Assembly (NCBI GenBank): GCA_903928685.1
Contig: CAIYRS010000009.1
Coordinates: 1 to 57,296, forward strand
DNA from: an uncultured Methylococcaceae bacterium
Lineage (GTDB): Bacteria; Pseudomonadota; Gammaproteobacteria; Methylococcales; Methylomonadaceae
DNA: 57,296 nucleotides
Direction: 5' to 3'
Within the stretch, counting starts at the first letter, position 1; every line of letters starts with the position of its first letter. Under the pieces are notes generated by a model. The model saw only the letters and a program-made list of their open reading frames with translations, was not told where the DNA came from and searched no databases. Shown in pieces: positions 25,339 through 28,785 of the stretch. A program made the translations under genes and the position numbers.

Positions 25339-26124
<786 letters not shown>

Positions 26125-26145
26125 CTATGAATAAATTGAATGTTG

Positions 26146-26505
26146 TTAGCGCATCAGTAGCGCAAACCAAAAAACCGATAACGCTGTTATATATCCGACT
26201 AACAGCGGCACTATTTGTATACCTGGAAGCTGGAATACTACGAAAAACATCCCACCTGTCAGCAATAACTTTCCGGCTTCACCTGCATAAAAAGAATTGA
26301 CAATCTTTCTTGCCTGTTTGCCTGCCGACTTTATTATCCGAATACTAAAATACATATTTGGAATAAATGCCACCAAACCGCCTAATGCGTTTGAGTAGCT
26401 TGCGTGCATCCCTGACACAATAAAAAAGCCTAGCGTGGTGATTGCTATTATCAGAATTTGATAGCTCAGAATTTTATTGACAGTGGACAACGGCCTGTTT
26501 ATCAC
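26146..26505 (-). CDS. atpI: ATP synthase accessory protein AtpI
   Basis: The 119-residue protein with four membrane segments opens the atp operon. AtpI helps assembly of the c-ring and is not part of the final complex. The motif YSNALGGLVAFIPNMYFSIR is typical of proteobacterial AtpI. A CGGAG ribosome-binding site lies 9 nt before the ATG, and a near-consensus promoter is at 26534-26562. Confidence 0.93.
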   Translation of the reverse strand: MINRPLSTVNKILSYQILIIAITTLGFFIVSGMHASYSNALGGLVAFIPNMYFSIRIIKSAGKQARKIVNSFYAGEAGKLLLTGGMFFVVFQLPGIQIVPLLVGYITALSVFWFALLMR

Positions 26506-26533
26506 ACTTAACTCCGAACAAAAAAGCTGGTGG

Positions 26534-26562
26534 ATTATAGCCAGCGACCCTGATTAAATCAA
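26534..26562 (-). promoter_or_regulatory. Sigma-70 promoter of the atp operon
   Basis: On the minus strand TTGATT (26562-26557) and a perfect TATAAT (26539-26534) are separated by exactly 17 bp. The predicted start point is about 20 bp upstream of the atpI start. It lies downstream of the terminator embedded in the ArfA-like gene, so the atp operon is insulated from that gene. Confidence 0.8.
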
Positions 26563-26584
26563 GGCACAAAAAACAACGAGGCGG

Positions 26585-26857
26585 TCAACCACAACAATTT
26601 GCAAATCGACCAACCCCAACTAAACGCATTTTTCCTTTACCAAAACAACGCACCAAGCTATTGAAAAAAGAGACTTTGCCAATCAAACCCATCACAGGAA
26701 CTATTGGCAAAATCTCCTTCTTCGCGTGTTTTGCTTTACGTTGGTATTTGTTTTTTACGTCAATGATATGACACTTATTGAAATGATGTGCAAATTTCGC
26801 CACAGGGTTTTGCAAAACTACACAATCGATTTTGCACTGTTTACTACGTTTTTTCAT
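26585..26857 (-). CDS. Candidate ArfA-like ribosome rescue factor with an internal terminator
   Basis: This 90-codon ORF has a good ribosome-binding site (AGAGGT, 6 nt spacing). Its first 47 residues are basic; the segment NPVAKFAHHFNK and then KNKYQRKAKH recall ArfA, which has a DP-x-F-x-QRV segment followed by a Y-x-RK-x-KH motif whose basic tail enters the empty mRNA channel. ArfA recruits RF2 to ribosomes stalled on broken mRNA. From codon 48 the DNA forms a 14-bp hairpin ending in U6 at codons 63-65. Transcripts stopping there would have no stop codon, which is exactly the known control of E. coli arfA by tmRNA. The tail beyond codon 48 is hydrophobic, as in full-length ArfA. Assignment is by motif and architecture only. 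Confidence 0.6.
   Translation of the reverse strand: MKKRSKQCKIDCVVLQNPVAKFAHHFNKCHIIDVKNKYQRKAKHAKKEILPIVPVMGLIGKVSFFNSLVRCFGKGKMRLVGVGRFANCCG
26664..26716 (-). terminator. Strong intrinsic terminator inside the ArfA-like ORF
   Basis: On the minus strand GAGATTTTGCCAAT (26716-26703) pairs with ATTGGCAAAGTCTC (26683-26670) over 14 bp with one G-U pair, the loop is 19 nt, and six T follow (26669-26664). Further wobble pairs could extend the base of the stem. It lies wholly within a reading frame that stays open past it. Confidence 0.88.
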
Positions 26858-26868
26858 TGTTTACCTCT

Positions 26869-26874
26869 TATAAT
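26869..26874 (+). promoter_or_regulatory. Possible -10 element for mnmG
   Basis: A perfect TATAAT lies 40 bp upstream of the mnmG GTG start. No convincing -35 hexamer is found at 16-18 bp, so this is tentative. The divergent ArfA-like gene starts 12 bp away, so regulatory signals for both genes overlap here. Confidence 0.35.
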
Positions 26875-26913
26875 AGCAAGTTATATTCAAGCCCCTAGAG
26901 TAAAGTAAAGCCT

Positions 26914-28785
26914 GTGAAATTCAAAAAAGATTTTGACGTAATTGTCATCGGCGGAGGCCATGCCGGAACTGAAGCCGCTTTAGCCGCCGCCCGTTGCGGT
27001 GCAAAAACCTTATTGCTAACGCAAAACCTCGACACCTTAGGACAAATGAGCTGCAACCCTGCCATAGGCGGCATCGGCAAAGGCCATTTGGTTAAGGAAA
27101 TTGATGCACTTGGCGGCATTATGGCGAAAGCCACCGACGTCGCTGGCATCCAATTTCGCACCTTAAACGGTAGCAAAGGCGCTGCGGTAAGGGCAACCCG
27201 CGCCCAAGCAGACCGCAGGCTTTACAAACAAGCCATTCGCCACACCTTAGAAAACCAACCCAACCTATCCTTGTTCCAACAAACAGTCGCCGACCTAATT
27301 GTAGAAGGCGAACAAGTGGTTGGTGTAAAAACCCTGATTGGTGTCGACTTTACCGCACGGGCAATCGTACTTACCGCAGGCACTTTTTTAGCCGGAAAAA
27401 TCCATATCGGCTTAGAAAATTACAGCGGCGGACGCGCTGGCGACCCCGCTTCAGTAGCCTTAGCAGATCGCCTGCGGGAATTGCCGCTGCGTATAGACCG
27501 CCTAAAAACCGGCACACCACCACGCATAGACGGCAAAACCATCGATTTCAGCAAACTGGAAGAACAACATGGCGACGACCCACTACCCGTATTTTCGTTT
27601 TTAGGTAACCGCGCCCAGCACCCTCGGCAGATTCCTTGCCACATTACCCGCACCACCAGCAAAACCCACGACATCATTCGTGCAGGATTAGACCGCTCAC
27701 CGCTATATTCCGGCGTCATAGAAGGCATAGGCCCACGCTATTGCCCGTCTATTGAAGACAAAATCGTGCGCTTTGCTGACCGCGACAGCCACCAAATCTT
27801 CATTGAACCCGAAGGCTTAGATACCCACGAAATTTACCCAAACGGCATCTCCACCAGCTTGCCGTTTGATGTCCAATACGCCTTTGTACGCTCCATGCCC
27901 GGTTTTGAAAATGCCGAAATCATCCGCCCAGGCTATGCCATCGAATACGACTTTTTCGACCCGCGCGATTTAAAAACCTCACTAGAAACCAAACACCTGC
28001 ACGGCTTATTTTTCGCAGGCCAAATCAACGGCACCACAGGCTATGAAGAAGCCGCCGCCCAAGGCTTGATAGCTGGACTCAATGCCGCTCGCTTAGTACA
28101 AGGCTTAGAAAGCTGGTGCCCACGCCGCGACGAAGCCTATATTGGCGTGATGATTGACGACTTAATTACCCGTGGCACGCAAGAACCTTACCGCATGTTC
28201 ACCAGCCGCGCCGAATACCGCTTACTGCTACGCGAAGACAACGCCGACTTACGCCTGACTGAAATTGGCCGGAACCTCGGCTTAGTTAGCGATAGGCAAT
28301 GGCAAGTCTTTACCGACAAACGCGCCCACATCAGCCAATTACAAGACGACTTAAAAAAACAATGGATACGCGCGGAAAGCCCGCAAGCCCTAGAAGTAGA
28401 AGCCATTTGGGGCAAACCTTTGTTAAAAGAAGCCAATTTAATGGAATTGCTGCGTAGACCCGAAGTGGATATACAACGGCTGCTGGCGTTTGTCGAAAAC
28501 CATGAAGAAATACCGGAACAAGTCAGCGAACAAGTGGAAATCCAAGCCAAATATTCCGGCTATATCGTCAGACAACAATCCGATATAGACAAATCCTTAC
28601 GCTACGACCACTTACGGCTACCCGAACACCTTGATTACAAAGCCATACCCGGCTTATCCAATGAAGTAAGTGAAAAACTCAAACAAAATCGCCCAGAAAC
28701 CCTAGGGCAAGCATCCAGAATGCAAGGCATCACCCCTGCCGCCATCTCGTTGCTTTTGGTCTATTTGAAGAAAAAATCTGCCTGA
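26914..28785 (+). CDS. mnmG: tRNA uridine-5-carboxymethylaminomethyl modification enzyme MnmG
   Basis: With MnmE, MnmG (GidA) forms cmnm5U at the tRNA wobble position. The 623-residue protein starts with GTG ([20 protein letters not shown]), which places the FAD-binding GGGHAG at residues 13-18; no nearer ATG fits. Other signatures are [20 protein letters not shown] and [20 protein letters not shown]. It opens an operon mnmG-rsmG-parA-ORF-parB that in many gammaproteobacteria lies close to the replication origin and next to atp genes. Confidence 0.98.

Follow-up and report, generated by a model that had tools for sequence, protein, structure and literature searches.

The DUF7230 gene of the window and its hairpin

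We analysed the window, i.e. the whole stretch of 57,296 nucleotides of contig CAIYRS010000009.1 from an uncultured Methylococcaceae bacterium, with respect to a small gene on its minus strand. The ORF (26585..26857, minus strand) comprises 90 codons as written and is preceded, 5' of the ATG, by AAGAGG (26864..26869, minus strand), read from the sequence as a likely Shine-Dalgarno element; the small ORF with a good ribosome-binding site described in an earlier note on this DNA is thus present. A Pfam profile search assigned residues 15-50 of the product to DUF7230 (PF23876), the score of 49.1 bits exceeding the cut-off of 27. The conserved core, NPVAKFAHHFNK...KYQRKAKH with the KH tail motif, covers residues 17-44 (26726..26809, minus strand).

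The core is followed by an in-frame hairpin of 24 pairs and −31.2 kcal/mol (26663..26723, minus strand; codons ~45-65), a putative terminator and/or RNase III site. Its main stem occupies 26670-26717 on the minus strand, and its right arm runs into a U6 tract that lies within the frame at codons 63-65 (26664..26669, minus strand). The frame then continues 3' of the hairpin for 25 codons and a stop (26585..26662, minus strand; stop codon 26587-26585). Folding of a 101-nt stretch around the hairpin gave −40.9 kcal/mol and a z-score of −5.6, with 0/200 dinucleotide shuffles equalling it. The earlier note had reported a hairpin with U6 wholly inside the frame and 25 codons remaining behind it, and this is what we found; the 14 bp then given to the stem become 24 pairs if base pairing into the U tract is counted, and the remaining codons, then called hydrophobic, fit that word only loosely, the tail being mixed.

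A terminator scan that permitted loops of 3-8 nt only, shorter than the loop region of the window hairpin, returned no site in 26100-27200, and a strict hairpin-plus-T-run scan returned a candidate in 30/38 loci, including weak candidates that lay far downstream. Such scans are unsuited to this structure because they require the T-run directly 3' of the stem, and that of the window required a short loop as well. Both were replaced by scans for any strong hairpin. An Rfam search (E up to 1) returned mir-1270 (20.4 of 90 bits) and ArcZ (17.8 of 66), both far below their gathering scores and taken as chance matches. The AlphaFold model of the core is of low confidence (pLDDT 63.6, pTM 0.19) and is uninformative either way; one weak PDB match obtained with the single window protein was taken as unrelated.

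Family assignment and spread

DUF7230 is a Pfam family without assigned function. By name it was absent from the literature searched, titles and abstract openings included, and a role in ribosome rescue is not previously recognised for it. The window protein gave no NCBIfam match at E up to 10. A DUF7230 match was obtained in 38/61 order-level relatives, 37 of them above cut-off, and in 13/369 genomes across the class, 11 of them above cut-off and two of the 13 belonging to the order. Alignment A1, built from 34 of the 38 order-level loci plus L046-L049, was also used to search (to E 1) the 23 relatives without PF23876; matches appeared in 6/23, all at E 0.11 or more, and these were not accepted as DUF7230 members. 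Searches around G172 (56 genomes) and G171 (55 genomes) added no new distant members. From a protein-pattern search, the best 80 of 139 relatives were retained, and 75 of these 80 loci are labelled as Methylococcales, with genera such as Methylobacter, Methylomonas, Methylovulum, Methyloglobulus and Crenothrix, which we take to be members of this order.

Within the 38 rows of A1 (16 of which make up alignment A3), Tyr38 and Arg40 are invariant and Lys43 and His44 are present in 90% or more. At one locus (L044, G015:C191:3000-5100) the match is split across two frames, by a broken gene or an assembly error, and a strong hairpin is retained. Two DUF7230 stretches (L063 and L098) occur on separate contigs of one Crenothrix MAG, as paralogues or from a mixed bin.

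Conservation and covariation of the hairpin

In total, 134 loci were entered into the comparison. Fifteen without the full core motif were left out, namely L044 with its broken frame, the distant DUF7230 matches L048 and L050-L056 and the ArfA loci L057-L062, and 18 exact repeats were merged, giving 101 distinct loci; L098, whose contig ends inside the core, was never entered. Protein profiles or patterns had served to collect the loci, so the hairpin played no part in their selection. In 100 of the 101 full-core loci, the strongest hairpin 3' of the core has 18-31 pairs (median 26). The exception, L049, has no comparable hairpin and was set aside, so that the hairpin, covariation and codon statistics refer to 100 loci.

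The median stability of these hairpins is −34.5 kcal/mol, and their place is nearly fixed. Counted from the end of the KH motif, they start at +2 nt (sd 3.2), end at +61 (sd 3.5) and are centred at +31 (sd 1.4), whereas the stop codon scatters from +33 to +183 nt (sd 28). The comparison of homologous loci, which the earlier note had proposed, thus shows the in-frame hairpin at a fixed place in these full-core loci. The z-score of the minimum free energy was below −3 in 98/100 loci (exceptions L029 and L079), compared to 11/457 control windows of the same loci. A T-rich tract, defined as at least 6 T in 8 nt at the base of the stem, accompanies the hairpin in 43/100 loci. The hairpin lies wholly 5' of the stop in 79/101 loci and includes the stop in 22/101 (L049 included).

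The 100 loci were aligned with plain MAFFT and a consensus fold was derived, which contains 20 pairs, all 20 with changes on both sides. The paired cells amount to 93.8%, compared to 71.5% when the partners are shuffled and 40-55% when they are slid by 1-3 columns. In the same way, cells with compensatory changes number 425, compared to 110.9 after shuffling (0/500 as high) and 48-100 after sliding by 1-3 columns. This covariation of the consensus pairs shows that selection acting on the RNA maintains the stem.

Reading frame and coding constraint

The frame of the core mostly stays open through the hairpin. From core to hairpin end, complete codons contain no stop in frame 0 of 84/100 loci, compared to 15 and 42 loci for the other two frames, and stops make up 17/2017 codons in frame 0 versus 154/1968 and 86/1939 in the others. 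The left half of the hairpin contains no frame-0 stop at all (0/1004 codons, against 79/983 and 26/934), and the right half has 16/934, against 64/885 and 47/856.

Codon positions were compared, ungapped, in 28 disjoint pairs of close relatives. In the core, 19, 28 and 146 of 784 sites differ at positions 1, 2 and 3, respectively (2%, 4% and 19%). The corresponding counts are 11, 27 and 32 of 196 in the left arm, 24, 26 and 29 of 84 in the loop and 27, 16 and 43 of 224 in the right arm. Beyond the hairpin they become 160, 168 and 155 of 280 (57% differences), and 44, 45 and 48 of 113 (~40%; 20 pairs) when counted over codons in frame in both partners, flat values that could come in part from the ungapped comparison or from misalignment of diverged sequence. 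The core thus shows a strong codon-position bias that disappears beyond the hairpin, where no protein constraint on the distal frame is visible. Past the hairpin, frame 0 reaches a stop earlier (median of 7 codons) than the other frames do (13.5 and 14), and some selection may therefore act on the distal stop as well.

Relation to ArfA

The earlier note had taken the product for a diverged ArfA, and membership of the window protein in ArfA is not supported. The ArfA profile (PF03889) gave no match to the window protein at E up to 10, none in its own genome at E up to 0.001 and none in the 61 order-level relatives, own genome included. A profile-profile comparison of the 38-row DUF7230 alignment with a 6-row ArfA alignment joined no more than 13 columns, all in the basic tail, with a probability of 21.5%. 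When the ArfA columns were shuffled, 0/300 controls scored as high (best 19.2, compared to 21.2 for the real alignment). The ArfA-like character that the note had seen in the basic segment is thus borne out insofar as the tail beats all 300 column shuffles, and the 13 columns at 21.5% do not establish homology.

The basic Y-x-R-K-x-K-H tail of ArfA is also present in the rows of A1, and the match demonstrates a motif in common but not a common ancestry. The KGKGS motif that precedes the tail tyrosine in the ArfA rows (KGKGSY) is missing in DUF7230, where the consensus reads DKxKY. Searched against the PDB, the DUF7230 alignment found no chain at E up to 10, compared to six ArfA sequences for the ArfA alignment. 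Across the class, ArfA was found in 6/369 genomes, DUF7230 in 13/369 and the two together in none, numbers too sparse to carry meaning.

Two weak DUF7230 matches, L054 and L056, are short ORFs in which NPxAK is combined with RTPRFRxRVV, resembling the middle of the ArfA rows, and they might form a bridge between the two families. The genomes of both have ArfB.

tmRNA and ArfB in carriers and non-carriers

The genome of the window carries ssrA, the presence of which the earlier note had proposed to verify: a tmRNA was found above cut-off at 208.6 bits, with the tag ANDENYSMAIAA. In a mixed set of 22 genomes, tmRNA was above cut-off in 21, the exception, G011, being without DUF7230 match. This genome is 99% complete and has ArfB; its best tmRNA E value is 1.6e-9, with short weak matches only, which could reflect an assembly gap or an unusual tmRNA.

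ArfB (NF006718, above cut-off) was present in 5/38 relatives with a DUF7230 match and in 11/23 without (Fisher p 0.006, kinship uncorrected), the weak and broken match of G015 being counted as a carrier. For the 52 better genomes, the figures are 4/34 and 11/18 (p 0.0004, kinship uncorrected). Exclusion is incomplete, both ArfB and DUF7230 being present in the 5/38, and 12/61 relatives (7/52 of the better genomes) have neither, so that genomes either can do without such a backup factor or have another one. Seven relatives of good quality (G032, G041, G044, G047, G052, G055 and G058) have none of DUF7230, ArfA and ArfB by profiles, and would depend either on tmRNA alone or on a further factor. 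In the mixed set, ArfB was above cut-off in 3/15 genomes with a DUF7230 match, compared to 4/7 without, and those three (G108, G321 and G415) are three of the four weakest DUF7230 matches.

Distant members and ArfA control loci

Outside the order, 7 of the 11 class-level DUF7230 matches (L048, L049, L050 and L053-L056) are without a comparable hairpin, which shows that nonstop control is not common to all members of the Pfam family. The expectation of the earlier note that homologues keep the hairpin in frame therefore holds for the close relatives and fails for these distant members. With the strong-hairpin scan, no hairpin reaching the frame was obtained at L048, L050 and L055; at L049, L053 and L056 there are weak hairpins near the stop that are no better than shuffles (z 1.5, −0.2 and −1.6), and at L054 a strong hairpin lies 3' of the stop (z −3.3). 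The remaining four do have a hairpin. Those of family f119 (L046 and L047) have 25 bp with the stop in the right half, and those of family f120 (L051 and L052, one genus) consist of a plain, terminator-like hairpin and then a T-rich tail within the DUF7230 frame (z −4.6 and −9.3).

Six PF03889 loci served as ArfA controls. In each, the best hairpin of the strong-hairpin scan reaches the frame before the stop; it starts between −26 and +15 nt relative to the corresponding point and ends before or at the stop in 5/6, the stop being inside it in 1/6. In a 90-nt test, L057 (−7.2) and L058 (−6.2) passed z −3, and the other four remained above it (L059 −0.3, L060 −1.4, L061 −2.8 and L062 −2.4); this test starts at the end of the profile match and cuts into some stems, and the window itself reaches only z −1.9 in it. 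The ArfA controls agree with the DUF7230 set in layout and are looser.

A candidate ribosome-rescue factor and the alternatives

In Escherichia coli arfA, a stem-loop in the frame, serving both as a terminator and as an RNase III site, produces a nonstop mRNA (PMC8012679, PMC10107115). For Bacillus subtilis brfA, the nonstop mRNA is ascribed to an in-frame terminator in PMC6881298 and to an RNase III site instead in PMC11633108. The former source also describes the Lys-His pair of ArfA and BrfA as touching 16S rRNA in the mRNA channel, places BrfA mainly in the genus Bacillus, and indicates that factors of this kind may act in a species-specific way. ArfT of Francisella, of 40 aa with a KKGGSTNKK tail, acts in a release-factor-dependent manner and is described in PMC6299226 as having no in-frame terminator or RNase III site; a broader ArfT family is reported in PMC6514570. 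A review notes that further rescue factors could exist, perhaps hard to find by sequence similarity (PMC8012679).

DUF7230 resembles ArfA (E. coli YhdL) in being small and basic, in its Y-x-R-K-x-K-H tail and in the stem-loop in its reading frame, and differs from it by the absence of a PF03889 match and of KGKGS and by adjoining mnmG in 88/99 other loci. With BrfA (B. subtilis YqkK), compared by description only, it shares the in-frame hairpin layout and the Lys-His pair in a basic tail. Like ArfT it is a small protein with a basic tail; from ArfT, as described, it differs in the tail sequence and in having an in-frame hairpin, and it could still be part of the broader family of PMC6514570.

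Considering these features together, we propose that the window gene probably encodes an alternative rescue factor for ribosomes on nonstop mRNA, in the manner of ArfA and BrfA, belonging to DUF7230. A fail-safe nonstop architecture of the DUF7230 loci, which the earlier note had predicted for the window gene, is strongly supported by their sequences: the hairpin is fixed and in frame, its pairs covary, the stop scatters, and no coding constraint is visible beyond the hairpin. According to this model, the hairpin would shorten the mRNA inside the frame, because transcription ends at the U tract, because RNase III cuts the long stem, or for both reasons, leaving a message without a stop codon. 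As long as tmRNA-SmpB is working, the stalled ribosome would be rescued and the DUF7230 product tagged (ANDENYSMAIAA) and degraded. Only on failure of that system would the protein build up and serve as a backup. The product left, of ~55-65 residues with a basic tail, would be the functional one, so that in the window it is likely to end near codons 55-65. That the mRNA is truncated in the cell, that the product is tagged and that it rescues ribosomes are all inferred from this layout. Stems with a median of 26 bp are long enough for RNase III, and with a T-rich tract in 43/100 loci either mechanism, or the two together, could operate. In the 22/101 loci whose hairpin contains the stop, a nonstop message would have to arise by cleavage 5' of that stop and not by termination at a U tract.

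The hairpin might instead belong to a short gene with another function, as an intrinsic terminator of the ordinary kind or a 3' stabiliser, its overlap with the frame having no role in regulation and the tail being dispensable. This would agree with the T-rich tract of those 43 loci, with a distal frame in which coding constraint is not visible and with the stop found inside the hairpin in 22/101. A stop before the hairpin is easy to evolve, yet none of the 1004 left-half codons in frame 0 is a stop and the right half is likewise depleted (16/934, compared to 64/885 and 47/856). The hairpin also keeps its place relative to the KH core while the stop scatters, and arfA and brfA, as they are described, use such a layout for regulation (PMC10107115, PMC6881298). 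We consequently regard an ordinary terminator as quite unlikely. DUF7230 could also be another basic protein that binds the ribosome or RNA, e.g. a hibernation or assembly factor, with the stem as a site of RNase III turnover or autoregulation. Stems of such length (median 26 bp) would suit RNase III, members without hairpin exist, and the rescue activity is itself a deduction. This proposal leaves unexplained the open frame through the hairpin, the ArfA-type tail and the greater frequency of ArfB where DUF7230 is missing, and it appears very improbable to us.

Two further readings concern descent. DUF7230 and ArfA may be true homologues, DUF7230 being a remote ArfA, which is compatible with a rescue factor and differs only on ancestry. 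The tail match that exceeds 300/300 column shuffles and the combination of NPxAK with an ArfA-like RTPRFRxRVV in L054 and L056 speak for it; the lack of a PF03889 match, the 21.5% over 13 columns and the PDB searches (no chain at E up to 10 for the DUF7230 profile, six for the ArfA alignment) speak against it, and common ancestry seems doubtful. DUF7230 may otherwise be an independently evolved, release-factor-dependent rescue family in which the nonstop circuit was built more than once, with a long covarying stem in Methylococcales, a plain terminator-like hairpin in f120 and some members in other groups without one. To this history we give almost as much credence as to its contrary.

Returning to the proposed rescue factor, the signature of a covarying in-frame hairpin behind a basic KH tail points to a candidate in a DUF family that is spread through methane-oxidising Gammaproteobacteria. 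If the proposal is true, the nonstop fail-safe circuit is found on another protein, a candidate backup rescue system exists where ArfA, and mostly ArfB, were not found, and the architecture offers a signature for finding further such factors.

Gene neighbourhood

mnmG lies divergently just upstream of DUF7230 in 88/99 other loci. AtpI, with AtpB, follows downstream in only 3/99 within the available flanks of ~1.5 kb, and insulation of the atp promoter by the hairpin, suggested in the earlier note, therefore cannot explain the conservation of the hairpin. Such insulation is possible in the window itself, where a promoter-like TTGATT-17-TATAAT (26562-26534, minus strand) is present between the DUF7230 stop and atpI.
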